A program made the position numbers and the translations under genes. DNA of 38,457 nucleotides, taken from the NCBI GenBank assembly GCA_949282255.1, contig CASDPA010000020.1, forward strand, positions 1-38,457, written 5' to 3'. How positions within the stretch are numbered: position 1 is the first letter of the stretch; every line of letters starts with the position of its first letter. The notes under the pieces are model-generated. The model saw nothing but the letters and a program-made list of their open reading frames with translations. It had not been told where the DNA came from and made no database searches. This document shows, in pieces, positions 2,213-31,233 of the stretch. Source of the DNA: an uncultured Spirochaetales bacterium. GTDB lineage: Bacteria > Spirochaetota > Spirochaetia > Sphaerochaetales > Sphaerochaetaceae.

Positions 2213-2218
2213 CGCGGT

Positions 2219-2270: not shown

Positions 2271-2292
2271 ATTACTAAACGCATAATTATAT

Positions 2293-4949: not shown

Positions 4950-4950
4950 A

Positions 4951-6738: not shown

Positions 6739-6762
6739 TACACACCTCTTTAAATTAATACT

Positions 6763-6785
6763 ACATGCATAATCAAGGTTGTCAA
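6763..6785 (-). promoter_or_regulatory. Promoter for paralog 3
   Basis: On the minus strand TTGACA (6785-6780) is followed after 16 nt by TAGTAT (6763-6758), 19 nt before the start codon. A divergent promoter for the gene at 6848 lies in the same 109-bp gap. Confidence 0.5.
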
Positions 6786-6810
6786 ACTCAAAAACATCGG
6801 TTAAGACAAA

Positions 6811-6839
6811 TTGAGCTTTATCAATTAATGTTTTATCCT
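6811..6839 (+). promoter_or_regulatory. Promoter for paralog 4, possibly leaderless
   Basis: TTGAGC (6811-6816), 17 nt, TATCCT (6834-6839). The ATG at 6848 lies 8 nt further on and there is no Shine-Dalgarno, so the mRNA would have almost no leader. Confidence 0.5.
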
Positions 6840-6847
6840 TATGAGAT

Positions 6848-12418: not shown

Positions 12419-12425
12419 GAATCTG

Positions 12426-12454
12426 ATTTTAGACAAGAAAAAAGCTGGCGTCAA
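12426..12454 (-). promoter_or_regulatory. Promoter of the ATPase/TOPRIM module, leaderless
   Basis: On the minus strand TTGACG (12454-12449), exactly 17 nt, TAAAAT (12431-12426), then only 7 nt to the ATG at 12418. No Shine-Dalgarno is present. Confidence 0.7.
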
Positions 12455-12517
12455 GTTTTCCGTAATTTTTTTACGGCATAAAAACCACCTTGCATATTCA
12501 CCAAGGCAGGACATAAG

Positions 12518-16655: not shown

Positions 16656-17393
16656 TCAGACAGAATATTTATAATCATAAGCCACGTCGGCCTTGAACGC
16701 ATCCGATCCAGCAAGAGCTTCAGGGACATCGATCACCACCCTTAGCTTTGCTCCTGCAAGGAGATTCGCTCCTGACACGTTTCCCATATCCTCCTTGGTG
16801 AGCGCATATGAAGAACCGTCTTCTCCATGAACCGTTATTGCCAGGGAATTGAGCATCTGATGGACGCTTCCTGTATTCGTGATGAGTATTTCAAGCTTGC
16901 CTTCGGCATTGATTGAAGCGCTGGACGATATCCCTTCGACAACCTTGGGCGGAGCGACATAAGCCGTAGTGGAGTAAACGAACAGGAAGTTTATCATCTG
17001 CCCGGACTCATTGTTAGACGCTCCCGTGGAATACGGGATCTGCTCGGCCTCGATCCTGTAGCTGGCCTCCTTTGCAACCAGGCGGGGGCCTCTGTACTGC
17101 ACGCGTACAAGCTGGGTGCTCTGAGGCTTGACAATCATTTTGCTCGGCTGGATGGAGAAATAGGAAGAAGCGTCTTCAGTAATCTCCTCGCCGTCGATGC
17201 CGATGCTCCTTGTCAAGGCCTTGACCTGCACAGCTATGGGCGAATTTGAATCATTTGTGACAGTATACACCTTCGCGCTGCCGGCTCCTGAAGAATCGTA
17301 GGTTGCGGACATGGGCGAGAACTGGAAAGAGAATGCAGATGAGATTGCAAAACATAGAATTAAAACAAAAACAATTTTTTTCTTGATGTTCAA
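16656..17393 (-). CDS. Periplasmic pilus chaperone 1 (PapD/FimC-like)
   Basis: A 245-aa exported protein. The start is a TTG (17393) seven to eight nt after GGAGGAT, giving signal peptide MNIKKKIVFVLILCFAISSAFS. It has two Ig-like domains. Domain 1 begins FQFSPMSATYDSSG, then AKVYTVTNDSNSPIAVQV (41-58), IQPSKMIVKPQSTQLVRVQY (81-100) and EASYRIEAEQIP (109-120). This is the classical chaperone pattern of 'P..h.l.pg..q.vR' followed by 'E..yrl...ip', whose strand G1 donates to pilin subunits. Domain 2 holds NTGSVHQMLNSLAITV (172-187). It closes the pilus operon, 49 nt after the previous gene. It is paralogous to the chaperone at 23521. Confidence 0.85.
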   Translation of the reverse strand: MNIKKKIVFVLILCFAISSAFSFQFSPMSATYDSSGAGSAKVYTVTNDSNSPIAVQVKALTRSIGIDGEEITEDASSYFSIQPSKMIVKPQSTQLVRVQYRGPRLVAKEASYRIEAEQIPYSTGASNNESGQMINFLFVYSTTAYVAPPKVVEGISSSASINAEGKLEILITNTGSVHQMLNSLAITVHGEDGSSYALTKEDMGNVSGANLLAGAKLRVVIDVPEALAGSDAFKADVAYDYKYSV

Positions 17394-17442
17394 GTTATTT
17401 ATCCTCCAAATACAGACATGAATCAATATCGACAGGCATCAT

Positions 17443-18087
17443 CTAAATGACCGATGCTTCCACTATAACATATCCCGAATAAACGGTGGCCATCAAAAAT
17501 TGCGAATCTCCCATGGAAGGGGCATTGAGCGTAAGCTTGATATACGCCTTGCCTTGTATGGCTCCCTTAGTTTCGACACGCTTTATAATCGTCTCTAGAT
17601 GGCTCAAGCTGAGATTAGCGCTTGAAATGTCGCCTCCTGTCATTGTGATCAGGGGAGTAAACCCGCTATCGGCCGCATCGGAAACAGAAACGCTGTAATT
17701 CAATTTTATCACGTCCTCTCCCTTGGCCTCATCCCCCTGCAGCATGAAGCCCTCCCCTTCGTTGAAATAAGATGCGTTCGGGTATGCGTAGAATTTCGCC
17801 TTGATGTCGACAGAGTCTGTAGAGTTGAACGACCATCCCACGCCTACAACCATCTCCCAAGTGAAATTGCTGCCGCTGACCAGAGGAAAATAAAACTCGG
17901 CCTGTTCGCTGTCCGGATTGGATGGGGAGAAGAACCAAATGCGCTCAGGCACATTCTTGTTCAGGACAAACGTAAAACCCACATCACTGTCTGCGATGCT
18001 CAGATTTTCAGGCGTTGTGGAAACTGCGGCGGCAGGCAGATACAGCAAGAGGATGAGGATAAATAAGGCAAGGTATCTTTTCTTCAT
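17443..18087 (-). CDS. Pilus subunit-like secreted protein
   Basis: A 214-aa exported protein. The ATG at 18087 follows AGGAGG at 9 nt; signal peptide MKKRYLALFILILLLYLPAAA. It is beta-rich (VGFTFVLNKNVPERIWFFSP, FTWEMVVGVGWSFNS). The GF element and the strands before the C-terminus (KAYIKLTLNAP) resemble the other subunits. The terminal motif (VYSGYVIVEASVI) is looser than in its paralogs. It is the last subunit gene before chaperone 1, and that order suggests it may be that chaperone's client. Confidence 0.6.
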   Translation of the reverse strand: MKKRYLALFILILLLYLPAAAVSTTPENLSIADSDVGFTFVLNKNVPERIWFFSPSNPDSEQAEFYFPLVSGSNFTWEMVVGVGWSFNSTDSVDIKAKFYAYPNASYFNEGEGFMLQGDEAKGEDVIKLNYSVSVSDAADSGFTPLITMTGGDISSANLSLSHLETIIKRVETKGAIQGKAYIKLTLNAPSMGDSQFLMATVYSGYVIVEASVI

Positions 18088-18100
18088 ATTCAGCATCCTC

Positions 18101-18667
18101 CTATTCGTTTGCAATCAGCTTCAGCATGAAATCGGCTGAATACCCGCTCTCATCGATATTCTCCATCTTTGAACCTTCCACGGCAATGAGAATGGAGCAA
18201 TTATAGAATCTCGGCAAAGAAAGCTCATCCTCACCAAGCCCCAGGGCCGCCTCGTCAAAAAGCAGGAACGCCATATCGTATCCTTGATCGGGAGTTTCAA
18301 TCCTGTTTTCCGGTTTGATATCCCCAGTATATATCCATTTTATATTTTCCTTGGCCGCATCTTTCGGCTTGAAATCTGTCGCATGGAGCTCCACCCTCAT
18401 GGAGTTCACCGAAAAGGACTGGAAATATGCATAAAAATATGAACTGTGGAAATAATCGCTATCCAGAAGATAAGTCATATCAATCCGGGTAAGGCTCCCG
18501 CTATCATCCACCAACGGCTGAGTCTCTGCCTTGCGGCTGAATCCCAGCCGGTATGCATAGCTGGAATCATCATGGATGAAACCTATGCGTGCAGTTCTTG
18601 AAATATCACCGGCAAACATAAGTTCAGCCAGAAGAAGTATAAACAATAACAGTAATATCCTCTTCAT
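18101..18667 (-). CDS. Pilus subunit-like secreted protein
   Basis: A 188-aa exported protein with AGGAGG before the ATG at 18667. Signal peptide MKRILLLLFILLLAELMFAG. It keeps the YRLGFS element (39-44) seen across the family, but the VYVYW strand is replaced by YFYAYFQSFSV (about 77-87). It ends SGYSADFMLKLIANE, a variant of the shared C-terminal strand. The middle holds a DxxxxENIKWIYTGDI segment in place of the LxWxhSW element. It has no paired cysteines. Its 13-nt spacing to the next gene fits a single operon. Confidence 0.6.
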   Translation of the reverse strand: MKRILLLLFILLLAELMFAGDISRTARIGFIHDDSSYAYRLGFSRKAETQPLVDDSGSLTRIDMTYLLDSDYFHSSYFYAYFQSFSVNSMRVELHATDFKPKDAAKENIKWIYTGDIKPENRIETPDQGYDMAFLLFDEAALGLGEDELSLPRFYNCSILIAVEGSKMENIDESGYSADFMLKLIANE

Positions 18668-18676
18668 CCGTTCCTC

Positions 18677-19288
18677 CTATTCAACGGAAATCAGCGAGAG
18701 CTTTATCTGGGCGATGTAGGTTCCGCTCTGCTTAGATGAATAATCATCGGTCTCTACATCAAGTTTTTTGCTGCCCGCCTCGCCTATCCCCTGAGCAGGA
18801 CGTCCTGAATACTTATGGACCAGAAGCCCGTAATCTTTACGGTAGTAGCCGCTGTCAACATCATAACCATACATCTTGTCTCCATCCTCATCCACCTTCA
18901 CATAATTATTTTTTGAAAAAGACAACGTCCATCCAAGCCACCTGTCATTCTCACTGCTATTCTCACTGATAAGCGGACCGACCGCATCCACATAGATGCC
19001 AAGAGCGGATGCCGAGATTATTTTCCAATATACATAGATGTTGTCGTTATCAGTTCCGTATGTCTGATTTTCTGAGGCAATGAGGCTGTATGTGTTGTCG
19101 GCGATGGTCTGCACCGGCTGGTTGAGTGCATCCACCATTCCAATTGAAAAACCTATCTCATACATATCCGCCGCGGATGGGGATAAGACTAGAGTGATGG
19201 AGGGTGCCGGAGCGGTGTCTGCGGCATACAGGAAGGACAAGCTGCAGACCAGAGATAACATCATAAACCCTTTCTTCAAGAACATCAT
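18677..19288 (-). CDS. Pilus subunit-like secreted protein
   Basis: A 203-aa exported protein; signal peptide ends near SFLYAA (22). All four shared elements are present: YEIGFS (43-48), IYVYWK (84-89), LGWTLSF (118-124) and C-terminal SGTYIAQIKLSLISVE (188-203). Pilin-type subunits normally end in such a beta-strand, which pairs with the chaperone and later with the groove of the fold. It lies directly downstream of the large candidate tip gene, and the terminal motif is among the best conserved. Confidence 0.7.
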   Translation of the reverse strand: MMFLKKGFMMLSLVCSLSFLYAADTAPAPSITLVLSPSAADMYEIGFSIGMVDALNQPVQTIADNTYSLIASENQTYGTDNDNIYVYWKIISASALGIYVDAVGPLISENSSENDRWLGWTLSFSKNNYVKVDEDGDKMYGYDVDSGYYRKDYGLLVHKYSGRPAQGIGEAGSKKLDVETDDYSSKQSGTYIAQIKLSLISVE

Positions 19289-19309
19289 ATTTTTTCACCC
19301 ATCCTTCAG

Positions 19310-20566
19310 CTACCTGTACGAATATATATGAAGATACAGCTCATCCTCATAACGCCCTTCTTTCATCAAGGCCAGCGGGGTATCGAGCATAATCTGTATA
19401 GTCCCGTCCATTACGCTTGAATACATATCATCTTTTTCCTGCACCGAATAGGATACGACCTGAGAACTGGCGGCGCCCAAAGCATCGAATTCTTCCTTGC
19501 TTGGAGAAACGCTCACAAATTCCTTGCCATTGAATTCCCCAGATACTACGGCATCGCTCGTCCTATATATCCTGGCCTTATACGCCAGGGATTCATCCAT
19601 GCCGGGATCTATATGGCTTGATGCGTTCTCGTTTATCAAAAGGAACCCCTGAAGGTCGCTCACCTGCGGATTGGCGTTTGCAGAAAGGAAAAACCGGCAG
19701 TCATAAGAAGGCCTGGAAGTATCGTTGAACATCTTGAAATTGAAATTGGCAACATCGATCCATCTGCCATAATCCGTTGCTATGTCCAAATTTGTGGAAT
19801 ATCCGGTAGGTGCAAGGTACAAGCTGCTAGTAGTCGGGAGGCTGCTTGCAGAAGAGGATGACTCAGGCACATAACCCGAGAAAGGAATGACAATGGACTG
19901 ATTTACCTCCTTGCGGGGACAAGCCCATACCATGGAAATCGTGACAAGTGCCGAATAATCGTCATTAGGTGCTATGTTATAAACCTTGTTGTCATATTCC
20001 AAAACATTGTTGCCGTTGGTGGTATCATTGTTATAATTATCTGCAGGAAGCACAAGCACCATGTCGAACCAGATTCCGGGGGATGTCACCCCTCCCGCAA
20101 TATCAGGATAGATTATCTCCGCAGTATTTGTCGTATTTGGAGAGATCCGATATGTTTCCCCAGTTCCTGTACCGCCATAAGCATCAAAGTATCTTTCAAC
20201 AATATCAATCTCAAATGGCACCTTATAGGCGGAATTGCTCTGAGATGTGAAAAAGAAGCCGCCGGGGCAGTTTACAGTCACAGTTATGGGATAATTCCTC
20301 AAATCATCATAAGATACATCACTTTTGCCTTGCTTTCCGTTCAGGATGCCGCCCAAAGCAATCATCTCATCATCACTGTACACGCCTTCATCATAATTTG
20401 GTCCGCTGTCAGTCCCCCCATAACCGTTGGCCCCTCCATCAAAGCCCCTGCTCAAAAGATTGACGCCGCCACCGCCTTTGAACGGTGAGATGAAATTCAC
20501 ATCTGCGGCAGCAAGCAACCCCTGAACAACTAAAAGAATGCAGCAGAAAAACAGCTTTTTCCTCAT
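19310..20566 (-). CDS. Large secreted subunit, candidate pilus tip adhesin
   Basis: A 418-aa exported protein, twice the size of the other subunits. The ATG at 20566 sits 8 nt after GGAG; an ATG 6 nt earlier overlaps the upstream stop but is too close to that site. The signal peptide is MRKKLFFCCILLVVQGLLAAA. The mature part opens with a glycine-rich stretch (FKGGGGVNLLSRGFDGG, GANGYGG) and is then beta-rich with many Asn/Ser/Thr/Tyr. It ends ALMKEGRYEDELYLHIYSYR, like the subunit C-terminal strand with a G..Y motif. In classical pili a two-domain adhesin of about twice pilin size sits at the tip, so the size and terminal motif suggest that role. No sugar-binding motif was recognised. Confidence 0.6.
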   Translation of the reverse strand: MRKKLFFCCILLVVQGLLAAADVNFISPFKGGGGVNLLSRGFDGGANGYGGTDSGPNYDEGVYSDDEMIALGGILNGKQGKSDVSYDDLRNYPITVTVNCPGGFFFTSQSNSAYKVPFEIDIVERYFDAYGGTGTGETYRISPNTTNTAEIIYPDIAGGVTSPGIWFDMVLVLPADNYNNDTTNGNNVLEYDNKVYNIAPNDDYSALVTISMVWACPRKEVNQSIVIPFSGYVPESSSSASSLPTTSSLYLAPTGYSTNLDIATDYGRWIDVANFNFKMFNDTSRPSYDCRFFLSANANPQVSDLQGFLLINENASSHIDPGMDESLAYKARIYRTSDAVVSGEFNGKEFVSVSPSKEEFDALGAASSQVVSYSVQEKDDMYSSVMDGTIQIMLDTPLALMKEGRYEDELYLHIYSYR

Positions 20567-20568
20567 CG

Positions 20569-21207
20569 TCATATCTCCGTAAGCTTGATTTTGACATCGG
20601 CATAATAATTGCCGATAGGAGCAGAATCAATATCAGATTCTTTAACAGAATCAGCAAATTTGAAATAAATGTTTCCATCATTGCCGCCGATGAAAAGCGT
20701 CTTATTGATCAATCCCAAGCCGCTGATTATGTTTGTGACAGCCGTACTTGTCCCGATATCGGCCTTTGTGACTTCTCCTATCAAATCGGGAGAGGAAACT
20801 GAGAACGTTTTTGTTTCGGTCTTGTTTATCGTATCGCCGATGTAATATCCGAGACTGTATTCGAATGTCAGGATGTATGGAAGCGAATAATCGGAATTCT
20901 CGCTGACCAAAGGTTCCAGCGTCACGCTTATTGTGAAATTTTCGGCATTGGACAGCAGCTGCCAATAAGCAATCCTGCGGCCATTGCCCTTGTTGGCGGA
21001 TTGGACGGCAGAATCCTCTATGCTGAAAGGCATGCCTATAAGATATTGCTGGGTCTGGGAAGGTATTGGCTCCACGCTTATTGAAAGGACCGATCCATAT
21101 CCTGCCTGCAGCTTCAATGGTTTTGAAATCTCTTTCGTCCATTCAGCAGAGAACAAATATGTAGAAAGAAGCAACGGGAAAAGAAGAATCAGAATCGCTT
21201 TTTTCAT
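20569..21207 (-). CDS. Pilus subunit-like secreted protein
   Basis: A 212-aa exported protein; GGAGGATG precedes the ATG. Signal peptide MKKAILILLFPLLLSTYLFS. It has IAYWQLLS (about 79-86), aligning with the VYVYW strand, then TISVTLEPLVSENSDYSLPY and a C-terminal GNYYADVKIKLTEI (199-212). A long Thr/Ser/Ile-rich loop (KADIGTSTAVTNIISGLGLI) before the last strands is peculiar to this member. It precedes and nearly overlaps the candidate tip gene, so it may act as its adaptor. Confidence 0.65.
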   Translation of the reverse strand: MKKAILILLFPLLLSTYLFSAEWTKEISKPLKLQAGYGSVLSISVEPIPSQTQQYLIGMPFSIEDSAVQSANKGNGRRIAYWQLLSNAENFTISVTLEPLVSENSDYSLPYILTFEYSLGYYIGDTINKTETKTFSVSSPDLIGEVTKADIGTSTAVTNIISGLGLINKTLFIGGNDGNIYFKFADSVKESDIDSAPIGNYYADVKIKLTEI

Positions 21208-21219
21208 TTCACATCCTCC

Positions 21220-21900
21220 TTACTGCGCACTAAGTGTGATTGTGCATGCCGCCTTGTACTTCCCCCCTTCGGCATCGGCATACGAACTTTTATATGAATC
21301 GTTTGATACGGCCAGCAGTCCCATGGCGATTGCGCCTCTCGCAATCCACACATCGTCAAGAAGCTCGCTGTTATTATCCACAGTCCAAGATACCGTAATC
21401 TGCCCGCTTTTAGACAAGCCCTCATCATCTCCCAGCCTTATCATCGTTGCAGATGGGGTTCCAGGCGTGATTATGCCCGATGCATCTGCTCCTGATGTCA
21501 ATACATATGTGACATTGCCTAACTGATATGCGGTATCGATATAATAAGCAGTATCACTATTTTCATTTTTCAAAGCGTTTAATGAGATTTTCAAATTGAA
21601 AGTGCCTCTGGAGTTGCCTTCCACCCTGTATGAGAACACAACCTGATTCTCAAAAATCATTTCAGCGGAGCTGGATACCAGCAATCTGTGCACATAAGGA
21701 TCCAGCACTAGCTCTTGGCCGTTAAGATGAGCATCAAGCCCGTAATTCAAAGCATCGGTGACGACAAGTTTGCATTGTGGAGTTGAGGAATCTGAAAAGC
21801 CGACCTTGAAAGCTTTAATTGTGAAATCCGCCTCCTTGTTGGAAAAAGCGGAGGAAAGCGAAAGTAAAATGACAAATGTCAGGATAAACAGCCTTTTCAT
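21220..21900 (-). CDS. Pilus subunit-like secreted protein
   Basis: A 226-aa exported protein; ATG at 21900 overlaps the upstream stop as ATGA. Signal peptide MKRLFILTFVILLSLSSAFS. FKVGFSDSST (31-40) matches the GFS element. QVVFSYRVEG replaces VYVYW. QITVSWTVDNN may correspond to the LxWxhSW element. It ends GGKYKAACTITLSAQ (212-226). It is one of the longest members owing to an inserted GADASGIITPGTPSATMIRL loop. It contains an unpaired-looking Cys in the last strand. Confidence 0.62.
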   Translation of the reverse strand: MKRLFILTFVILLSLSSAFSNKEADFTIKAFKVGFSDSSTPQCKLVVTDALNYGLDAHLNGQELVLDPYVHRLLVSSSAEMIFENQVVFSYRVEGNSRGTFNLKISLNALKNENSDTAYYIDTAYQLGNVTYVLTSGADASGIITPGTPSATMIRLGDDEGLSKSGQITVSWTVDNNSELLDDVWIARGAIAMGLLAVSNDSYKSSYADAEGGKYKAACTITLSAQ

Positions 21901-22427
21901 GTGTTGCTCACCTCCACAGTGATGGTTGAAGAATAAGAATCTAACTTATCAATACTTAATCCATTTGTAATGATCTTTATCAAAAAGGAGCCGCAGCAGG
22001 CAAAATCATCTCCGATATCGATATAATCGGTCTTGGGATTATCGGATGGATCTACCATTATTGTCTTATCACCAAAAGAAAGCGAATAGCCCAAAGCATT
22101 GCCTCCGCTGCCGATCAACGGGGATGCCGTGATGCTGATATTTTTCGTACCCTCGTATGCGAACTGGTAGGAAAGATAGGCCGTACCGTCAAATTCGCCA
22201 TATATCTCATAACCGTTGCGTTTTGCATCAAGAACAAAATCCTCTGCATATATTTCCGATTCCAGCTGTTTCCTGAAATCCTTTATCTCTCCCTTTGAAA
22301 TGAAACAGCGCACGATATTGCCGCTGAAATCGGATTTGACATAAAGGGTGTCTGTTGGCAGATCCGCAGGATAAAGCCGGGTGGATGCAAGAATAAGCAG
22401 GCTTATCAATATTGCTCTCGCTCTCAT
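21897..22427 (-). CDS. Pilus subunit-like secreted protein
   Basis: A 176-aa exported protein. Its ATG (22427) overlaps the upstream stop (ATGA) and its own stop overlaps the next start, so it is coupled on both sides. Signal peptide MRARAILISLLILASTRLYPA. It is more divergent: FVLDAKRNGYEIYGEFDG, then ISITASPLIGSGGNALGYSL, which aligns with the 'I.l...GPL......W' region. It carries a vicinal pair DFACCGS near 142-148 and ends SYSSTITVEVSNT. No VYVYW strand is obvious, although AYLSYQFAYEG is a candidate. Confidence 0.58.
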   Translation of the reverse strand: MRARAILISLLILASTRLYPADLPTDTLYVKSDFSGNIVRCFISKGEIKDFRKQLESEIYAEDFVLDAKRNGYEIYGEFDGTAYLSYQFAYEGTKNISITASPLIGSGGNALGYSLSFGDKTIMVDPSDNPKTDYIDIGDDFACCGSFLIKIITNGLSIDKLDSYSSTITVEVSNT

Positions 22428-22948
22428 TTCGCCACAACCTCCAATTTAGCTGTACCTTTATAGGTGCCGGTTTCCTTTCCTCTCAGATCCTCAGTCCTGA
22501 ACAGCAATTCATAAGACCCAAGCTTCAATATGTTCTGATCATCCTGCATATGGGTGATTGTTATGCTATCTTTATAATTCTTGTCGGAGGCAAGCGCAAC
22601 CTCCCATTTCAGAGTTGCGGAAGTATCCTGCAGATCGGTCCCAACCGATACGATAATATCCAATGGAGCCGCATAGATCATCTGCGCATAAACATAAACC
22701 TTGTCATTATTTGAAAGGCGCACCGTACCATCGTCGAATTCATTCACAACAAGTTTCAGAGGATCGCTGTCAGTATAACAAGGAGTCACCGAAGTGAAAT
22801 CGCTGACTACAGCATTGGTGAATCCGGCCTTGCAATAGCGCAGATCGCTCGTCTTATATTCCAGTGTAAGGTTTTTTTCTTCTGCATCAGCCCAGAGAAA
22901 AGAGCCGAGGATGAATATGGCAAGCATCAGAAACAGTTTTCTCATCAT
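22424..22948 (-). CDS. Pilus subunit-like secreted protein
   Basis: A 174-aa exported protein; AAGGAG precedes ATG by 6 nt. Signal peptide MMRKLFLMLAIFILGSFLWA. Elements: CKAGFT (39-44), VYVYAQ (84-89, the Trp replaced by Ala), LKWEVAL (113-119) and GTYKGTAKLEVVAK (161-174). Two Cys (39 and 57) flank the first strands and could form a disulfide, as in many classical pilins. It is the shortest member and close to the typical size of a major pilin. Confidence 0.65.
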   Translation of the reverse strand: MMRKLFLMLAIFILGSFLWADAEEKNLTLEYKTSDLRYCKAGFTNAVVSDFTSVTPCYTDSDPLKLVVNEFDDGTVRLSNNDKVYVYAQMIYAAPLDIIVSVGTDLQDTSATLKWEVALASDKNYKDSITITHMQDDQNILKLGSYELLFRTEDLRGKETGTYKGTAKLEVVAK

Positions 22949-22958
22949 CGCATACTCC

Positions 22959-23510
22959 TTAATAAGACTCCAGCCGCAGGATGAGATTCGCCTGCAGCAC
23001 TCCGCTGCTTATGCTCGTAACGCTCTTATCCCATAAAACAGAACTCACACCAAACTTCAGGCACCCTTGATCCAATAAAGACTTACCATCATGGTCTTTT
23101 ATAATAATAGCATTCTCAAAGCCGTATGCAGAGGTGGACATCCCGTCGTTTTCATCTGCAACCGTCCAGGATGACTCCCCCAGAGGACCGCTCTCATATA
23201 AATACAGCTTCATCGGATACGCGGTATAAAGATCCCAATAAATATATATATCCCGACTATTGACTATTTTGACTGTACCATTATCACCAGGAACACCGGA
23301 CAGAGCAACTTTATTGTTTTCAAATGGTTCAGCGATATTGCCACCGGAGAATGTCACCTCTGTTGAGGAAAAACCGAAATCGGTTCTGAAAGTGGATGGC
23401 TCGCCGATATCAAGGGATATGTAGGTATAGGCAGATACGGGAGAGAAATCGGAATAAGCCGGCAGCAGCAGGACTGCGGACAGCAAAATGGAAAATATTA
23501 TTCTTCTCAT
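22959..23510 (-). CDS. Pilus subunit-like secreted protein
   Basis: A 183-aa exported protein. The frame extends upstream into chaperone 2, but the ATG at 23510 follows GGGAGGAAGG and gives signal peptide MRRIIFSILLSAVLLLPAYS. Elements: FGFSSTEV (45-52), DIYIYWDLY (87-95), SGPLGESSWTV (107-117) and C-terminal SGVLQANLILRLESY (169-183). It ends in Tyr as its final residue, reminiscent of the penultimate-Tyr ending of classical pilins. It lies 10 nt downstream of chaperone 2. Confidence 0.66.
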   Translation of the reverse strand: MRRIIFSILLSAVLLLPAYSDFSPVSAYTYISLDIGEPSTFRTDFGFSSTEVTFSGGNIAEPFENNKVALSGVPGDNGTVKIVNSRDIYIYWDLYTAYPMKLYLYESGPLGESSWTVADENDGMSTSAYGFENAIIIKDHDGKSLLDQGCLKFGVSSVLWDKSVTSISSGVLQANLILRLESY

Positions 23511-23520
23511 CCTTCCTCCC

Positions 23521-24267
23521 CTATAGAAGACCGTATTCATAATCATAGGACACCTCCACCGAAAATGAACCGGCACCATCCAGTTCCAACGGCATGTCGA
23601 TGGTCTTTTCCAAAACCGTCGAAGAATATATCGACCTGCCCTGCCAATCATTAAGTTCGGCATCGGACAGCCTATAACAGCTTCCATCATCCCCATATAC
23701 GCTGATTGAAAGCGAATACAGCATCTGATGGACGTTCCCGGCATTTTCAAGCCTTATCGTAAGCTTATCGCATCCGGTACGCGATGCATGCGCTTCCACC
23801 TTCTCCACCACCTTGGCAGGAGCGACGAAACTTGTCGTGGTGAAAACGATCAATACGGATAAGGGCCCCTCCCCTTCATCCTTGATCCCGACATTGTACG
23901 GGACCTGCTCGAAAACGAAATGGAAAGCCATCTCGCTCAGAAGTATCTTCGGTCCGCGATATGAGATCCTCACCAGCTGGGACCTTCCGGGCGGGATTAT
24001 CATCTTCGCGGGCTGTATGGAGAAATATGCGCCTCCATCAACGGAGCTCTCGCTTCCGTCCGCGTTTATGTTCCTCTTGTTTACGCCCACTACCACGGCA
24101 ATCGTGGAATCGGTATCGTTCGAGATCGAATAGATCCTCGCCGCCCCATTTCCAGTTGTGGTGAAATCGGCATCAAGAGGAGACAGCTGAAAAGCAAGAA
24201 GCCCTACTGGTGACATGAATGCCACCAATAGGAATAAGAATATTGTTTTCTTGCCTTGCTCTGCCAT
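23521..24267 (-). CDS. Periplasmic pilus chaperone 2 (PapD/FimC-like)
   Basis: A 248-aa exported protein with signal peptide through LLA near residue 25. Domain 1 starts FQLSPLDADFTTTGNGAARI (26-45). It continues with IQPAKMIIPPGRSQLVRISY (84-103) and EMAFHFVFEQVPYN (112-125), the strand F1/G1 region with conserved Arg and Glu. The following DEGEGPLSVLIVFTTTSFVA contains alternating hydrophobics expected of the donor strand. Domain 2 contains NAGNVHQMLYSLSISV (175-190), nearly identical to chaperone 1. Two Cys (166 and 197) in domain 2 are absent from chaperone 1. It sits in mid-operon between two blocks of subunit genes. Confidence 0.86.
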   Translation of the reverse strand: MAEQGKKTIFLFLLVAFMSPVGLLAFQLSPLDADFTTTGNGAARIYSISNDTDSTIAVVVGVNKRNINADGSESSVDGGAYFSIQPAKMIIPPGRSQLVRISYRGPKILLSEMAFHFVFEQVPYNVGIKDEGEGPLSVLIVFTTTSFVAPAKVVEKVEAHASRTGCDKLTIRLENAGNVHQMLYSLSISVYGDDGSCYRLSDAELNDWQGRSIYSSTVLEKTIDMPLELDGAGSFSVEVSYDYEYGLL

Positions 24268-24274
24268 AATAACC

Positions 24275-24880
24275 TTAAGAATTTATCGCCTTAAGATAAA
24301 TTGTCCCAGAATAACTATCTCCTTCACTGACCGTAGTGGAATCTGTACTCACATTCAACTCCATAGTTCCGCATGAATCCTGTATGATAGAGCTAGACTC
24401 AATAGTGACAACTGTATTCTCTGTAGAGTCGGAAGTAAAATTTGTGTTGGCTTGCGTAGCTTTATTACTTCCCTCATTCCACAGGATGCTCCAATTAAGT
24501 TTTTTACTACCAGATTCCATCTGACCGTTTGTATATATGCCCAATTTTACATTTTCTGAAGACCTGATTTGCCAATAAACCCACACGGTCCCAACACCAC
24601 TATATTTTTTCTCACCTACATCATTTTCATTCTGAATCTCAGTATTCAACGTTAAAGGCCCACTATAAGAAGATATCTGAGAATTATAATTTATATTTTC
24701 TTTATTTTCTTCAATAAAGCCAAATTTATACCCAGTCAAAGCACCAACATCTATGGTCCACTTAACAGACAAATCCGCGGCACCAGTAGGAGCAGTATTT
24801 CCTTTTACCGATACATAGGGGTCTGCAAAGATTATAAACGGAACAAGCAACACTATTGCAAAAACAAATATTCTTTTCAT
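24275..24880 (-). CDS. Pilus subunit-like secreted protein
   Basis: A 201-aa exported protein with signal peptide MKRIFVFAIVLLVPFIIFA. Elements: YKFGFI (51-56), VWVYWQI (99-105), LNWSILW (128-134) and GDSYSGTIYLKAINS (187-201). It is notably rich in Asn, Ser and Thr, and the gene is more A+T-rich than its neighbours, so it may have a different history or be under diversifying pressure. One Cys only. It lies 7 nt upstream of chaperone 2. Confidence 0.68.
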   Translation of the reverse strand: MKRIFVFAIVLLVPFIIFADPYVSVKGNTAPTGAADLSVKWTIDVGALTGYKFGFIEENKENINYNSQISSYSGPLTLNTEIQNENDVGEKKYSGVGTVWVYWQIRSSENVKLGIYTNGQMESGSKKLNWSILWNEGSNKATQANTNFTSDSTENTVVTIESSSIIQDSCGTMELNVSTDSTTVSEGDSYSGTIYLKAINS

Positions 24881-24896
24881 TTTTTCTCCTTAAAAC

Positions 24897-25559
24897 CTAA
24901 TTATTTGTAGCTATTTCCAAAGTAAGGGTGCCATAGTATGCACCTTCCTTGTTAGCGGTATCATCGGGTGCATAAGCATTTGCCGTCTCAATATCCACCT
25001 TTGTCGATCCGACTACCCTCTTGACCTCTGTTTCAGATCTTCCGCTTTGGGAATATACATCCTGCTTTGCGTATACGATGCTTTCATCCCCAAGAATTTC
25101 TCTGTCGGTTGTTCCAGACACCATGCTGCCCTGAACTGACCCGGTCGGGTTCTTCTTGGTCCAGCTTGCCTGCCAGTTAAGTCTTTCTGTATCATCTGCA
25201 GCATTATCAGACAGCTCCATATGTCCATCGTTTTTTAAGGAAATGGTGAGATCTTTATAAGATTCTATAATCCAATAAACATAAACTTCACCTTTTCCGG
25301 CTGCAAATTCTTCAGACATGTCAGGAGAGTCCAGTACAACCTCATTGCCTGAAACATCCGTTGGGTTCGGGGAAGAAGAACTGACTTCCGTCTCCGAAAA
25401 ACCAATCTTATACAAATCTTCAGAAGAATAAGTCCACACAACTTTCTGCTGAACTTTTGCAGTGCCGTTAGCAAGCTGAGCATCCTTAAACGTTTCTCCT
25501 GCAAAAACCGTTGCACAACATAATAATGCAACCATAAACAAAAGAACCTTTTTTATCAT
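24897..25559 (-). CDS. Pilus subunit-like secreted protein
   Basis: A 220-aa exported protein. The ATG at 25559 follows GGGAGGATTTC; signal peptide MIKKVLLFMVALLCCATVFAG. Elements are textbook for this family: YKIGFS (50-55), EVYVYWII (91-98), LNWQASW (127-133) and EGAYYGTLTLEIATNN (205-220). This C-terminus is very like the closing strand of spore-coat-U/Csu-type archaic pilins (GxYxxTLTL). It carries an extra charged loop between the third and last elements (about 150-200). A good query for homology searches. Confidence 0.7.
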   Translation of the reverse strand: MIKKVLLFMVALLCCATVFAGETFKDAQLANGTAKVQQKVVWTYSSEDLYKIGFSETEVSSSSPNPTDVSGNEVVLDSPDMSEEFAAGKGEVYVYWIIESYKDLTISLKNDGHMELSDNAADDTERLNWQASWTKKNPTGSVQGSMVSGTTDREILGDESIVYAKQDVYSQSGRSETEVKRVVGSTKVDIETANAYAPDDTANKEGAYYGTLTLEIATNN

Positions 25560-25596
25560 GAAATCCTCCCTATATCGTTCTGATGTTTTCTTCTGC

Positions 25597-26160
25597 TCAA
25601 ATCTGCGTGACGGTAAGCAACAGCGAGCTGCTGTACCATCCTGCAGGTTTATCCCTGATATCTTCTGTCTCAATTATCAACTCGACATATCCCCTTTCTT
25701 CCTCTTTTGACATGGAAGTCCGCCTGAACACGCAGAGCTCGCTCCCATATCCGTTCTCACCTCCTATCAGACAGTCACGGGTTTCCCCGTCGACAATCCC
25801 TGTCCAAGATACAAACCAATCTATCTCATCCGCAGCCCCTTTTAAGGAATCTGCGGCCTTTAGCGTTATCTCCAACGGGAACGAATAGTTCATCCTCCAG
25901 TAGACATAAACCTCGTTCTCGTTTACGAATGTGGAATCGGCTTCGCTTATCTCCAAGTTCCCTGCAGTCTCTTCAACAGCTTCTCCCGCTTTGTTTACTG
26001 AATAGAAACCGACCCTGATGCTCTCCATATTGTTGTTAGGCACAACATATGTCACTGAAAGGGACAGGCTGTCTTTCCCAGACCAGCCTGTGATGCTGGA
26101 TGCAAAAAGCATGGAATAAATTCCAGCAATCAGGATAAATAATGAAAACACCTTCTTCAT
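25597..26160 (-). CDS. Pilus subunit-like secreted protein
   Basis: A 187-aa exported protein; ATG at 26160 follows AAGGAAAG, giving signal peptide MKKVFSLFILIAGIYSMLFA. Elements: IRVGFYS (48-54), EVYVYWRM (83-90), IDWFVSW (113-119) and AGWYSSSLLLTVTQI (173-187). Two Cys (130 and 143) bracket a Gly-rich turn (IGGENGYGSEL) and could form a disulfide hairpin. The element order and spacing equal those of the neighbour at 24897, so the two are close paralogs. Confidence 0.68.
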   Translation of the reverse strand: MKKVFSLFILIAGIYSMLFASSITGWSGKDSLSLSVTYVVPNNNMESIRVGFYSVNKAGEAVEETAGNLEISEADSTFVNENEVYVYWRMNYSFPLEITLKAADSLKGAADEIDWFVSWTGIVDGETRDCLIGGENGYGSELCVFRRTSMSKEEERGYVELIIETEDIRDKPAGWYSSSLLLTVTQI

Positions 26161-26193
26161 TCTTTCCTTTTCCCCTTTCAAAACGGATACGGC

Positions 26194-26751
26194 TCAATTG
26201 CCTTTGTATGTCAAAGTCAACGTACCTGTATATGTGATATCCGACGCAACAGCCTCAACCGGGCCTGTCTCAAGCAAAAACTTACAAGCGCCGCTTCTGT
26301 TTGCCGATGTTACGGACACATGAAGCTCCCCCGATTCCCCAGCGGACCATTCCCCTCCTTGAGGATTGCTTATGGCCCACCCGACCTGCGATGCAGCATC
26401 TCCGACATGCAGATACGCATCATCCTGTTTGACAGACAGCGTTCCTCCATTTTCACCCACTATCCACCAAAAAGCATAAAGCTCGCCATTCCCATACAGC
26501 TTCCCGTCATCCTTGATGGTATTGGAATCCACAGTAAACTCAGATATGCCAATGCCGTCAGAAGGAAGCTCATCCGTATCGGAAAATCCAAATACCGTGA
26601 ATCCAGAAGACCCGGCAGGATTGAAAACAACCTTTTTCTCAAAAGAGCCGAAACCTTCCAGGTTCGAGTAATAGGCGGCCCCGTCCTCTGCAAAAGCAGG
26701 AACAAGAAGAATGGTTAATATGATCAATATGAAACAACCTTTCTTCACCAT
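26194..26751 (-). CDS. Pilus subunit-like secreted protein
   Basis: A 185-aa exported protein; signal peptide MVKKGCFILIILTILLVPAFA. Elements: FTVFGFSDTDE (51-61), ELYAFWWI (90-97), VGWAISN (123-129) and DITYTGTLTLTYKGN (171-185). The YTGTLTLTY ending again matches archaic pilin subunits. The gene starts 4 nt after the stop of the gene at 26756's frame, with only a weak GAGG site, so translation probably depends on coupling. Confidence 0.67.
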   Translation of the reverse strand: MVKKGCFILIILTILLVPAFAEDGAAYYSNLEGFGSFEKKVVFNPAGSSGFTVFGFSDTDELPSDGIGISEFTVDSNTIKDDGKLYGNGELYAFWWIVGENGGTLSVKQDDAYLHVGDAASQVGWAISNPQGGEWSAGESGELHVSVTSANRSGACKFLLETGPVEAVASDITYTGTLTLTYKGN

Positions 26752-26755
26752 GGCC

Positions 26756-27364
26756 TCAACTCATCCTCAGCTCAATCCTCAACTGTGCCGAATAACTTCC
26801 GGCTAAAAGATCCGCATCCCCATCCCACATCAGCTCAACATCCACAACAGGAATCCCCCTTCTTGGCCCAGAGGCAGGGATATGTATGTAAGCCTCGTTG
26901 GTTCCCAGCGAATGGCATAAAACATCATCCGGCCGATCATCGGACGGCTCCATGGAGACAATGACTGGGATATGATATGAGATTCCTCTTCTTTCCAGCT
27001 TCAATCCGCTTCCGATATCCATGACAAGATAAGCATCGTAATCGTCTTCCTTGTTTCCGTAATACAGCATCCTGAAAGAGAAGCTGTTCCCATTCTCTTG
27101 CATGCTGCCAAGCGATATCTCGTCTTTGGAGATCAAGCTGCGCCCCTGCCAGGATGCAAAATCTTCCAAATCTTCCAGTTCGATTATGTTTTCGAAGACA
27201 AAACCGTCCAGCATGAGAACGTCCTCGGGGAAAACAACTCCAAAATCCTCCGGAACGTACGCGGTGAAATCCAGCACGTCAAACTGGTAGCTGCGCGTTC
27301 CCGCTGTCAGAAGGCCAACCGAGGCCAAGATGACGATACAAACGATCAATAATCTTTTTCTCAT
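26756..27364 (-). CDS. Pilus subunit-like secreted protein, first after the usher
   Basis: A 202-aa exported protein. The ATG at 27364 is 10 nt after AGGAGG; a GTG at 27370 (4 nt after that site) is an alternative. Both overlap the end of the usher gene. Signal peptide MRKRLLIVCIVILASVGLLTAG. It is a divergent member: no VYVYW strand, but FSFRMLYYGN and GISYHIPVIVSMEP strands and the shared C-terminus AGSYSAQLRIELRMS (188-202). Its position next to the usher suggests an early-assembled or base component. This is inference from order only. Confidence 0.6.
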   Translation of the reverse strand: MRKRLLIVCIVILASVGLLTAGTRSYQFDVLDFTAYVPEDFGVVFPEDVLMLDGFVFENIIELEDLEDFASWQGRSLISKDEISLGSMQENGNSFSFRMLYYGNKEDDYDAYLVMDIGSGLKLERRGISYHIPVIVSMEPSDDRPDDVLCHSLGTNEAYIHIPASGPRRGIPVVDVELMWDGDADLLAGSYSAQLRIELRMS

Positions 27365-27366
27365 CC

Positions 27367-30300
27367 TCACAACACCTCCTGCGGATAAAGCATATTCCAG
27401 AAATCATCGCTGCTGAGATTGCTCATATAAACCATATGCCCGATGCCGGAATACGGTTCCATTGCAATCTCTTCGTATGATCCGTCCATCACGACCATGT
27501 TCACCCCTTCTGTTTTGCTGTCATCCCCAACCTCGAACACCACCATGTACCAGAAATCTCCGCAGAGCACATCGAAAGCATAGGTTCCCGCCTCAAGATC
27601 GCTGAGGATGAAACGGCCTGTCTCATCTGTGAAAAGGTAATATTCGCTTTCCTCCAGCGTTGCACCGCCATCATCGGAAGCAATATATCTGTACACAGGG
27701 GAAGACCCGTTGATGAAAGCATTCCCATCAGGGAGAAGAACGATGCCCGAATAAACATATTTTTTCTCCGCTTCAAGAGTAATCACATATCCGGCAAGCT
27801 CCGAGCCCGGTATCGTCACGTCAAAGCTCACAGCACCGCCGAAAGCATCCTCATTTAGGCTGAATATCGAAAGGCTTGCAGGATTTCCGAGGGAAAGCCC
27901 CTGGTAGATTCCAATTCCGAACATGCTGTCTATCTCCTCGGAATAAGACGAACCGACCATTCCGACCGAAAGCTTATTTCCCTTCAGATTCCCTTTCTGC
28001 CTTATGAGGATGAAATTGTTTGGCCTTGATGGCACAAAGGTGAACATCCCGTCAGCAAACAGGGAAGTGAGGCCAAGATTCGCCGAATACGAAAGCCCTT
28101 CTAGCCCTCCGCGGGTGGCCACATTGATACCAAAATCCAAAAGCCTGCCGCTGTACCTGTAATTTGCGCCAAGCGAATACGAGGAAGGATCCATCCAATC
28201 GGTTATTCCTGCATTTGCATAGAAATAATGCCTGCCTTCGCTGATGCTCATGTTCAGTGATGTGCTGTTGATGATATCGGAACTGGCGTTTATGGATGCA
28301 GGCCCAAGACGCAGGCTCATTCCAACCGAACCATAGACTGCACCAGATGCAGCCTCGCGGCCGGAATACCCTAAAGAACCGGAGAGAGACACCTTGTTGC
28401 CCAATGGGACGCTTATGCTCGACGAAAGCATCCAAAGATCTTTCGATACAGCATCCAAACCCCATGTGTAATAGCCGCTGAGGCTCCAGCCCAGCATTCC
28501 GGCACGGCCGGAAACGGAAGACGAAAGGGATATCGTGTTCCTCACGGCATCCTTATCCGAGAATCTTCCGCTGTATGCAACCGACGAATTGAATACGGAA
28601 ATACCATCCCATCCGGTATATACCTGATGGCTGAGCCTGAAATTCAGATCAGGAGCGTAAAAACCGGAAGAATCCAGCTTCTCATCTATATCCAGGTTAT
28701 ATTTCGTTGTCCCCAGGACATTGGCATGCGTGAGCTCGAAAGACCCGGAGGAAGACAGATTGAAGGCCGAAGATGAAGTGACTTTATTCTTCAGCCCCAT
28801 GGATGCGGAAAGTGAAAGGTTCTCCAATATTCCGATATCAAACGTCCCGGATAAGACAAGATTGCGGATATCATATTCCCAGGCCTGGGATCTGAACCAA
28901 GGGATGCGCACAGCCCCGGAAACAGATGAAGACGAGGATGGCACAAGCTTCCTTCCTGTAAAAATACCGACACCCCAGGTCATTTCCCCTGGGGCGAGAA
29001 GACTGCTGGAAAAATTGATGTTCAATTCCATTTCCCTTGGCGGCGACCCGTCAAGGGGCTCGATTATGATCTTTATCCTGTTGGCACCTGTATAAAGCAC
29101 AAAATCCCTCAACAGATAATTGCCGACATCAAGGGTTTTCCTATAAATCTCACGCCCCTCGTTATAAATCGTAACATCGGAGCGTTTTTCTATCGTAAGG
29201 ACTTCCTCTATCTGGCTCTTACGCCGTTCAAGACTTTCCCTGTACTTATTTATTTTTATGCCCAGCGTCGTCCCTTCCGGAGAAAGCTCATATGAAGAGA
29301 TATTTCCCCAAGAAAGCCGATAAAGTCCGTCTTGGAAATCGGTATACATGTTGTAAGAGCCTATATTGAATAAGACCTTACTATCCGCATAGCTCAGCGA
29401 ATAATTGAAACTGCCATAAACGCGACCCAGCCGGAAATCATTATTGATATAAAGGCCTGCATTCAACGAGTCTTTGATGGCATCCAATCCGACACCCCTG
29501 GCATTCAGATATAAAGAATAATCGCTCGACAGGACAAAAAAGGCAGGAGAAAGCTGGAGCGCTCCGGTTACAGGCCTGAACTGGTTGATCCTGCCGCTGG
29601 AGCTTATGTTGATGATCCTCACAGGCATGTCGTCATTGCTGAAATATAGATAAACATCAAACGTGTCGAAATTGCAGTCCGTCTCAACACCGCAATCCTC
29701 AAGATAGCCGAGCCCGATATACTCAGCATCATTTCTGAATATTCTGAGCTTGGCCATATCTGTCAGATATCCACTGACATAACCTTCTGTTTCAGCGGTA
29801 TTTATGAAGATGTCCCCATTTTCCACCAATGTGGCAACAACGCCGACAAAAACATCGTCCACGTTCAGATTCATGTAATATATTCCATCTTCAAGAACAA
29901 GCTCGTCCTCTCCTGCAATATAGAAATCCGCCCAGAAATCATCCTCATCCGAAACGGTTTCCTCAGCATCGTAGACAATCGCAAAAGGTGGCATGGCCAT
30001 GACGGGAGCTTCTGGAACAGCCGTAATTCCAGGGCTGGCTGGATCTTCAGGGAAAGTGGTTTCAGCGGTTTGCTCAGGCCCTTGGGCCATCACCTCTTCA
30101 AATGCCGCTTCACCAGACACCTCCGGCTCATCGGGTTTCTCAACAGCCTCCGTCCTGCCAATCACAGCAGAAACATCCTCTTTCAAATCAGACAGGCCAG
30201 ATGGAGCCGTATCGGAAATCTCGTCGATAATAGTTCCTGTCGCCGGGAGCTCCTCTTGCATCGCCCATTCTTCGGTGGTTGCAGATTCAATAACTTTTGT

Positions 30301-30861
30301 GGGATGGGTTATGAAAGTTGTGGCACGGGTTTCATCTGCAACCGCCGCAGGAGATACCTTCACCGGCTGCACGAGACACAGGATCGCCAGCATCACAAGC
30401 AGCAGGATCATAAACAGCGTTATTATCACCGATAACCTGACCGGCTGCTCATAGGCCTCTTTATTCTCGTCCCCCGACCAAAGGAAATAAACGACGATTT
30501 CTGAAACGGCATAAGAAAAAGCCAACAAGAGGAAAATTGTTTCGACAGGATTATCTGTAAACGGAGGGTACACCTCGGCGACAAGAACTGAGAAAGCAAA
30601 TATGGCAAGGAAAACCGCAACTGATTTCCTTGCTCTCTCCTCTTTTCTGCCCATTTTCTTATTTTTTATCAGGGAAGAATTGAGGAAAACCAATTCAACG
30701 ATGGCATATATAAGCAGGAAGAGAACAAATAACAGCCCGATATCGGACAATAAGGATACATCTGAAGCTAACAGCATGATGAGAAATACCATGGCGGCAA
30801 AAAATAACGGCGCCATGATGATTAGAAGAATAAATGATCTTTTCTTCTGTTTCTCATCCAT
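27367..30861 (-). CDS. Outer-membrane usher-like protein with N-terminal five-helix membrane domain
   Basis: A 1164-aa protein; ATG at 30861 lies 9 nt after AAGAGG (in-frame ATG 30867 and GTG 30870 are alternatives). Ushers are normally about 800-870 aa. Here residues 9-32, 41-60, 80-97, 107-127 and 143-164 are hydrophobic helices, followed by a Glu/Pro/Thr-rich linker (170-305). From about 320 the usher part begins: LEDGIYYMNLNVDDVFVGVV resembles the usher N-terminal chaperone-binding domain. A long barrel region follows, with SDVTIYNEGREIYRKTLDVGN and YTGANRIKIIIEPLDG, the usual 'V.hy.nG..iy....v..G.f.l.d' and 'G.l.v.h.e.dG' usher pattern. The C-terminus (about 1055-1130, DETGRFILSDLEAGTYAFDV) is the regulatory-like usher C-domain. 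PVKVSPAA after helix 5 could be a signal-peptidase site. It would secrete and order the subunits at the outer membrane. Confidence 0.78.
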   Translation of the reverse strand: MDEKQKKRSFILLIIMAPLFFAAMVFLIMLLASDVSLLSDIGLLFVLFLLIYAIVELVFLNSSLIKNKKMGRKEERARKSVAVFLAIFAFSVLVAEVYPPFTDNPVETIFLLLAFSYAVSEIVVYFLWSGDENKEAYEQPVRLSVIITLFMILLLVMLAILCLVQPVKVSPAAVADETRATTFITHPTKVIESATTEEWAMQEELPATGTIIDEISDTAPSGLSDLKEDVSAVIGRTEAVEKPDEPEVSGEAAFEEVMAQGPEQTAETTFPEDPASPGITAVPEAPVMAMPPFAIVYDAEETVSDEDDFWADFYIAGEDELVLEDGIYYMNLNVDDVFVGVVATLVENGDIFINTAETEGYVSGYLTDMAKLRIFRNDAEYIGLGYLEDCGVETDCNFDTFDVYLYFSNDDMPVRIINISSSGRINQFRPVTGALQLSPAFFVLSSDYSLYLNARGVGLDAIKDSLNAGLYINNDFRLGRVYGSFNYSLSYADSKVLFNIGSYNMYTDFQDGLYRLSWGNISSYELSPEGTTLGIKINKYRESLERRKSQIEEVLTIEKRSDVTIYNEGREIYRKTLDVGNYLLRDFVLYTGANRIKIIIEPLDGSPPREMELNINFSSSLLAPGEMTWGVGIFTGRKLVPSSSSSVSGAVRIPWFRSQAWEYDIRNLVLSGTFDIGILENLSLSASMGLKNKVTSSSAFNLSSSGSFELTHANVLGTTKYNLDIDEKLDSSGFYAPDLNFRLSHQVYTGWDGISVFNSSVAYSGRFSDKDAVRNTISLSSSVSGRAGMLGWSLSGYYTWGLDAVSKDLWMLSSSISVPLGNKVSLSGSLGYSGREAASGAVYGSVGMSLRLGPASINASSDIINSTSLNMSISEGRHYFYANAGITDWMDPSSYSLGANYRYSGRLLDFGINVATRGGLEGLSYSANLGLTSLFADGMFTFVPSRPNNFILIRQKGNLKGNKLSVGMVGSSYSEEIDSMFGIGIYQGLSLGNPASLSIFSLNEDAFGGAVSFDVTIPGSELAGYVITLEAEKKYVYSGIVLLPDGNAFINGSSPVYRYIASDDGGATLEESEYYLFTDETGRFILSDLEAGTYAFDVLCGDFWYMVVFEVGDDSKTEGVNMVVMDGSYEEIAMEPYSGIGHMVYMSNLSSDDFWNMLYPQEVL

Positions 30862-30882
30862 TCCCATCACCCTCTTGAAAAA

Positions 30883-31233
30883 TCAGAAACCCCTTCGGAC
30901 AATGCAGGAAGAACCTGTATGTTTCGTGGCTGCACAAAAGTCGGCAGCTGCCATATTGCAGGATCCAATAAGGCAACAGCCGTCATTGCAATATCGAGCA
31001 AAAAGGTCATCTTGGGCTTCATTGCAGGACAGGCCTTGTTTTCTGCAATAAGATGCATACTGGCACATTTCCGCATTATTTTTAGAAACATTGGCAACTG
31101 AACAAACCTTCCGGCCATACATTGCGGAAGAAAAATATATTGCATCCAGCGATGACAGCTGATAAGCGTAAGCGCTTGGTGTAAATAAAAGCATGAAAGA
31201 AAACACCAGAGCAAACAAAGTCTTTTTCCTCAT
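30883..31233 (-). CDS. Cys-rich secreted protein with chaperone-like N-terminus
   Basis: A 116-aa exported protein; ATG at 31233 follows GTGAGG by 5 nt. Signal peptide MRKKTLFALVFSFMLLFTPSAYA. The mature start YQLSSLDAIYFSSAMYGRKV plus CSVANVSKNN aligns with the first two strands of both pilus chaperones (FQLSPLDADF..., FQFSPMSATYDSSG). After that, homology stops and a tail with ten Cys in all follows, with repeated C-N motifs (SCNEA, YCND, SCNMA). Other frames of the tail do not restore a chaperone, so it is not a simple frameshift. It is the first gene of the operon. It may be a disulfide-stapled accessory or a mosaic from a truncated third chaperone gene. Confidence 0.6.
   Translation of the reverse strand: MRKKTLFALVFSFMLLFTPSAYAYQLSSLDAIYFSSAMYGRKVCSVANVSKNNAEMCQYASYCRKQGLSCNEAQDDLFARYCNDGCCLIGSCNMAAADFCAATKHTGSSCIVRRGF

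Follow-up and report, generated by a model that had tools for sequence, protein, structure and literature searches.

The window analyzed here is a stretch of 38,457 nucleotides (nt) from an uncultured spirochaete (contig CASDPA010000020.1) of the genus Candidatus Ornithospirochaeta (Sphaerochaetaceae). Its positions 16656-31233 hold, on the minus strand, a compact run of genes that was interpreted, with a probability of roughly three in four, as the chaperone-usher pilus locus of a flagellum-less spirochaete, with an usher that carries a permanent N-terminal inner-membrane anchor in place of a cleavable signal peptide. An original prediction, made from the DNA letters without database searches, had already proposed here a chaperone-usher pilus operon, probably of a spirochaete. 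The operon was corroborated by Pfam matches, by the fold matches of the usher and of one subunit, and by synteny with 26 other loci of the same kind; the host, by the homologous loci, which are named Candidatus Ornithospirochaeta, Sphaerochaeta or Spirochaetales. The prediction of one usher-like protein was also correct, but it overlooked the nature of the first ~320 residues. The length of 1164 amino acids (aa) exceeds that of ordinary ushers, and these N-terminal residues are a five-helix membrane anchor and a disordered linker.

The usher and its N-terminal extension

The usher gene and its parts, with the evidence for each from the AlphaFold2 (AF2) model, its predicted local distance difference test score (pLDDT) and family comparisons, are as follows:

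27367..30861, minus strand: usher, 1164 aa, with inner-membrane anchor, linker and usher domain (AF2 model; FimD and PapC as best matches)
30373..30861, minus strand: usher anchor, five predicted transmembrane helices (AF2; parity and loop charge across the family)
29905..30378, minus strand: disordered acidic/Pro-rich linker, model residues ~165-322 (pLDDT 25-41; composition, lengths)
27367..29898, minus strand: usher domain with N-terminal domain, barrel with plug and C-terminal domains, model residues ~325-1167 (AF2; 3rfz_E alignment)

The window usher itself gave no Pfam usher match. A related spirochaete usher (locus L039) matched Pfam Usher PF00577 at 33.8 bits, and a profile of such spirochaete ushers found the window usher with E 1.2e-20. 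Sequence searches of the Protein Data Bank (PDB) with usher profiles returned low-complexity matches only, so that the identity of the usher rests on folds and transitive homology. In the AF2 model, numbered from the GTG at 30870, five helices (residues 6-34, 40-69, 75-100, 108-131 and 138-166) are followed by disorder over 164-322 and, from residue 329, by a beta-rich body with about 24 barrel strands by our own count, a plug region and C-terminal domains. The top 19 Foldseek matches were all FimD or PapC chains, the best with E 1.6e-28 (FimD). With VIA-align, FimD and PapC occupied the top 15 rows, with Z scores of 18.7-21.9 and root-mean-square deviations (rmsd) of 5-10 Å, and the next unrelated barrel scored 16.2. 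The alignment of 3rfz_E spans residues 325-1132 and thus includes the usher N-terminal domain. The usher identification, for which the original prediction had asked a structural check, was in this way supported by structure.

Concerning the extension, the window usher was found to have no cleavable signal peptide; it begins with the five helices, followed by ~150 disordered, acidic, Pro-rich residues and then by the usher domain. The N-terminal helices were counted by hydropathy in 54 complete ushers of the family: one in 27, three in 17, five in 7, seven in 2, and two in 1, i.e., an odd number (1, 3, 5 or 7) in 53 of the 54. In the loops that an N-in topology places in the cytoplasm the density of Lys plus Arg was 0.298, versus 0.073 in the other loops. 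The linker after the last helix was of 113-279 residues (median 164), never shorter than 113 aa in the family, and contained 11% Pro and 16% Glu; the corresponding values for the usher body were 3.6% and 4.9%. The shortest linker could still reach ~41 nm, taking 0.36 nm per residue.

Signal-peptidase-like sites after the hydrophobic run were counted in 196 of 254 pilins (77%), in 8 of 27 one-helix ushers and in 12 of 27 multi-helix ushers, by a crude count that also misses five of eight signal-peptide ushers. The hydrophobic run itself had a median length of 21-22 residues in the usher anchors versus 16 in the pilins. Outside the family, the open frames of ushers from other spirochaete families measured 786-905 aa. 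Where the N-terminus could be read, in eight of them, an ordinary signal peptide immediately precedes the usher domain; four had unclear starts with the simple open reading frame (ORF) caller used. In a maximum-likelihood tree, all 55 anchored ushers fell on one side of a fully supported branch, with the signal-peptide ushers outside. The one-helix forms were basal and the 3/5/7-helix forms made one supported group, inside which the helix number shifts several times, nearly always by two. This tree was made with a quick method, with no bootstrap and with long outgroup branches, and the usher of locus L062 was labelled by hand as a three-helix form despite its two predicted helices.

Two other accounts of the N-terminus were rejected. 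A frame artefact is at odds with the lack of stops in any of the open frames and with the 55 complete anchored ushers of the tree, and lipoprotein anchoring of the one-helix forms with a Cys near the helix end that is present in some of them and absent in others. A TonB C-terminal domain was searched for in the window usher and gave no match; only the anchor and the linker resemble TonB. Taken together, helix parity, loop charge and minimum linker length are what one would expect of a chain that is held in the inner membrane and extends across the periplasm. We infer that the anchor is retained on the mature usher and that one usher chain bridges both membranes; the purpose assigned below to such bridging has the same standing. 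The absence of a cleavable signal peptide is not decisive as to the pathway, for which such a peptide is usual rather than defining.

The operon, its chaperones and its subunits

All the ORFs of the compact run were confirmed on one strand, as originally predicted. The 17 genes and the first ORF span from 31233 to 16656 in the direction of transcription, with intergenic gaps of -26 to +49 nt. Gene starts were refined by Shine-Dalgarno motif and signal sequence, and with the refined starts a plausible Shine-Dalgarno-like motif precedes each gene. The content is one usher, two PapD-like chaperones (ch1 and ch2), 13 paralogous pilin-type subunits, a 420-aa subunit and a degenerate chaperone ORF. 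The order of transcription is: decayed chaperone ORF, usher, five small subunits, ch2, five small subunits (the last two of them named A and B), the 420-aa subunit, three small subunits and ch1. Besides the usher, the features are the following, with the pilin-type subunits and subunits A and B identified by profile search unless other evidence is given:

30883..31233, minus strand: degenerate chaperone remnant, 116-aa ORF (DNA alignment to the chaperone of locus L021 and its upstream region)
26756..27364, minus strand: pilin-type subunit 1, 202 aa, single-copy orthologue of the position-4 gene in 21 relatives
26194..26751, minus strand: pilin-type subunit 2
25597..26160, minus strand: pilin-type subunit 3
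24897..25559, minus strand: pilin-type subunit 4
24275..24880, minus strand: pilin-type subunit 5
23521..24267, minus strand: second PapD-like chaperone, ch2, with His replacing the anchor Arg (PapD_N E 2.4e-4)
22959..23510, minus strand: pilin-type subunit 7, start probably at MRRIIFSILL
22424..22948, minus strand: pilin-type subunit 8
21897..22427, minus strand: pilin-type subunit 9
21220..21900, minus strand: subunit A, orthologue of the relatives' first post-usher subunit
20569..21207, minus strand: subunit B, orthologue of the relatives' second post-usher subunit
19310..20566, minus strand: probable two-domain tip subunit, 418-420 aa, adhesin candidate (single copy; orthologue position)
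18677..19288, minus strand: pilin-type subunit 13, the modelled one (AF2 pLDDT 88; Foldseek, VIA-align)
18101..18667, minus strand: pilin-type subunit 14
17443..18087, minus strand: pilin-type subunit 15
16656..17393, minus strand: PapD-like chaperone, ch1, with the anchor Arg, closest to the relatives' chaperone upstream of the usher (PapD_N 31.2 bits)

The presence of two PapD-type chaperones, another of the predicted traits, was confirmed by hmmscan of the translated proteins: ch1 matched PapD_N above the cut-off of 23 bits, and ch2, with 21.5 bits, slightly below it. A six-frame PapD_N Pfam search of the window's own assembly, which is less sensitive than hmmscan of translated proteins, gave no match. 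A profile of 27 spirochaete chaperones found in the PDB EcpB (E 1.9e-5) and CsuC (E 0.013). The subunit-anchoring Arg, Arg89 in CsuC, is described as the sequence trait most typical of archaic and alternative chaperones (PMC4654587). This anchor Arg was present in 26 of the 27 sequences, in the column of R124 of ch1, aligned to CsuC ...YRLIVDELP. With His at that position, ch2 may serve a subset of the subunits or be drifting.

In the other loci of the genus there is a single chaperone, immediately upstream of the usher. In the nearest relative, locus L021, an intact chaperone holds the same place as the window ORF 30883-31233, which is Cys-rich past its first ~45 residues and retains the ancestral upstream region and the signal peptide. 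The alignment to the L021 chaperone is of high identity over the region upstream and the first ~170 nt (score 243 versus a shuffled maximum of 74); beyond that point the similarity breaks up. The ORF was for this reason identified as a decayed chaperone, whose work is probably done by ch1 at the far end of the operon. The separate Cys-rich protein of the original prediction must then be given up, and 30867-31214 was rejected as a genuine Cys-rich gene, as it aligns to the L021 chaperone and then decays.

Concerning the subunits, their unusually high number was also upheld, with 7-14 after the usher across the genus. Downstream of the usher, the 27 loci have 321 candidates, of which 200-290 are collected by an iterative profile search started from nearly any of the small proteins. 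A single profile matches each of the 13 small subunits of the window over almost its full length; judged by these profiles, they form one paralogous family. The subunit 18677-19288 was modelled from an 84-sequence alignment with a mean pLDDT of 88. Its strands lie within residues 42-201, the aligned strands begin at 40-42, and the final strand (191-201) is the chain end. The best Foldseek matches were the CS17 and CfaB pilins (E 3.5e-3 to 9.6e-3), and VIA-align gave CsuE (Z 7.5), CfaE (6.6), CS17 (6.4) and EcpA (6.1), some unrelated beta-sandwich domains scoring in the same Z range. The expected incomplete Ig-like fold with an N-terminal donor extension was thus borne out on one modelled subunit, with middling scores, and the remaining subunits are linked to that one by the sequence profile.

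The 420-aa subunit has one copy in each of the 27 loci, and in 26 of these its gene comes third behind the usher (414-565 aa). The subunit profile matches the C-terminal half of several orthologues, which fits a tip subunit of two domains. The 420-aa protein is probably such a subunit and a candidate adhesin.

Elsewhere in the window, a candidate two-gene anti-phage defence pair occupies 10570-12514 on the minus strand (PADLOC: PDC-M12A-like AAA ATPase, E 2.9e-108, and PDC-M12B, E 1.2e-40). A glycosyltransferase of capsular polysaccharide synthesis (2305-3228) is surrounded, within 329-8590, by four exported proteins of 580-658 aa that are seemingly interrelated and barrel-like; the two of the four that were scanned (329-2071 and 4951-6927) had no Pfam match at E 0.001.

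Distribution and relation to known systems

Usher homologues were found in 48 of 100 related genomes, belonging to 13 of 46 genera. The contig scan was made with a genus-level alignment, as the family-wide usher alignment was too diverged for it. Flagellin was not found in any of the 36 genomes of the window genus tested, and was present in 19 of 24 genomes from other families of the class. Among the family's other genera, the chaperone-usher pair has V-type ATPase genes or other genes for neighbours and no subunits beside it, and subunit-like genes are found elsewhere. In two complete genomes of the Sphaerochaeta group (L154:8972-18280 and L152:8595-16700), scattered subunit-like genes occur beside genes for a TonB-dependent receptor, ExbB, ExbD-like proteins and TonB. 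In L033:9203-16075, tested with Pfam, a chaperone-usher pair is followed by V-type ATPase genes (AC39 subunit, subunit I) with no pilin alongside, and L036 and L037 have genes of the same sizes and order. One genome (G058) holds both usher types, a three-helix form with a subunit operon and a one-helix form without subunits (L030:2862-6236, L031:11712-15029), which suggests an old duplication in the family.

The most widespread class of chaperone-usher systems, the archaic one, ranges over Proteobacteria, Cyanobacteria and Deinococcus-Thermus (PMC4654587). A search of open-access literature found neither a membrane-anchored usher nor a chaperone-usher pilus of a spirochaete. The earlier statement that no such pilus has been characterized in spirochaetes agrees with both, and the proposed inner-membrane-tethered arrangement, found in none of the chaperone-usher pili in the open literature searched, appears to be new.

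With archaic (sigma) pili such as Acinetobacter Csu (CsuC/CsuD/CsuE), the window system has in common a chaperone, an usher, small subunits and a larger tip subunit, as well as the non-classical anchor Arg and the best VIA-align match of the modelled subunit (CsuE). It differs from them in its 13 paralogous subunits, versus few, in the inner-membrane-anchored usher and in the two chaperones. Related spirochaete loci carry subunits of the Pfam family SCPU (PF05229): three of four genomes from other spirochaete families gave matches, and hmmscan matched L039 as well; the loci of those families are of a plain archaic type (with SCPU subunit, chaperone, usher and a larger SCPU-containing subunit). 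No SCPU match was found in 14 Sphaerochaetaceae genomes, that of the window included, and because of this the window system was not classed as archaic. With the alternative pili of Escherichia coli (CS1/CFA/I, ECP) it shares EcpB as the best sequence match of the chaperone profile, a subunit model resembling CfaB, CfaE, CS17 and EcpA, and a two-domain tip subunit; it departs from them in the anchor and linker of the usher, the large subunit set and the phylum. Chaperone sequence and subunit fold both group the system with the non-classical pathways.

The usher body is like that of type 1 and P pili (FimD, PapC) in N-terminal domain, barrel with plug and C-terminal domains (VIA-align Z 19-22), while the anchor residue of the chaperone is the non-classical one. 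FimD and PapC have a cleaved signal peptide. The anchored N-terminus resembles the inner-membrane tethers TonB and TolA, which likewise have an N-terminal membrane anchor and a long Pro/acid-rich linker crossing the periplasm; here, however, the linker is fused to an outer-membrane barrel rather than binding one, and the family has up to seven helices and no TonB C-terminal domain. Another usher-type protein with an added domain is the P-usher CupB3 of Pseudomonas aeruginosa (Ruer et al. 2008, as cited in PMC4793230), in which, according to that citing passage, the fused part is of the two-partner-secretion translocator type and not a membrane anchor.

Alternative interpretations and proposed mechanism

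The N-terminal helices might be an elaborate targeting sequence, cut after export to leave an ordinary outer-membrane usher with or without a disordered tail. An AxA-like site does occur past the last helix in some sequences (SPAAVADE in the window), and such a cut would ease the way of the barrel to the outer membrane. Nevertheless, signal-peptidase-like sites are few there in comparison with the pilins, targeting has no need of 3, 5 or 7 helices, and the odd parity and the 113-aa minimum linker would be left unexplained, and we consider this interpretation unlikely. It is clearly less probable still that the operon is an ordinary one, notable for its host phylum only, and that the extension has no role. 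All the usual parts are indeed present, and other spirochaete families have plain archaic-type loci, but the extension is kept in all 55 complete ushers of the tree, with a constrained topology and a widely diverged sequence. Finally, the barrel and chaperones could export secreted or surface proteins that form no fibre, in line with the chaperone-usher pairs that lack adjacent subunits outside the genus. Usher-type export of other cargo does exist, as stated for the P-usher of Pseudomonas in the passage of PMC4793230 concerned; however, the cargo here looks pilin-like, numerous Ig-like subunits that belong to one family and end in pilin-type C-termini are present in every complete operon of the genus, and Sphaerochaeta genomes carry related genes elsewhere. 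This last interpretation seems very improbable.

Several points weigh against an anchored usher serving a pilus. Outside the genus, the same anchored usher adjoins V-ATPase or other unrelated genes, without subunits next to it. The L062 usher has two predicted helices, the helix counts come from hydropathy, with AF2 confirmation for the window protein only, and an unusual protease could remove the anchor. The usher model had a predicted template modelling score (pTM) of 0.53, with loose domain placement and an rmsd of 7-9 Å to FimD, and the subunit matches were middling (Foldseek E 3.5e-3, Z under 8), though pilins dominate the list. Gene order, chaperone and usher homology, the pilin-like subunit fold, and the conserved anchor topology with its linker were computed here; pili in these bacteria are a prediction from genes and models.

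If the locus does encode a pilus with an inner-membrane-anchored usher, assembly could be pictured as follows. Sec would insert the usher helices with the N-terminus in and the C-terminus out, hence their odd number. The flexible acidic/Pro-rich linker of more than 110 residues would cross the periplasm, and the C-terminal barrel would fold into the outer membrane. PapD-like chaperones would deliver Ig-like subunits, which lack their final strand, to the N-terminal domain of the usher. There the subunits would polymerize by donor-strand exchange, and the resulting fibre would have the 420-aa tip subunit at its head and several of the ~13 paralogous subunits in its body. Such a tether would secure the base of the pilus to the cell cylinder and keep the reach between the inner membrane and the assembly platform fixed. 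A more tentative proposal, which we regard as rather doubtful, is that the usher is a one-chain, two-membrane machine with an active helix bundle, which would capture subunits leaving the Sec channel, sense load or assembly state, or be coupled to an energy source in the inner membrane, whereas the pathway is otherwise regarded as needing no energy input. From the TonB-ExbB-ExbD neighbours in the Sphaerochaeta group, some connection of TonB energy with such fibres is conceivable.

Few surface fibres are understood as well as chaperone-usher pili. At the level of genes, the chaperone-usher pathway is extended to a phylum outside the range given in PMC4654587. If the interpretation is true, an usher chained to the inner membrane in a whole bacterial family would change the picture of the usher as an outer-membrane protein working alone, and it would be a natural experiment on holding a pilus base in cells which, like spirochaetes, have a loosely attached outer membrane. 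It also points to a possible means of attachment for flagellum-less gut spirochaetes in animal guts.

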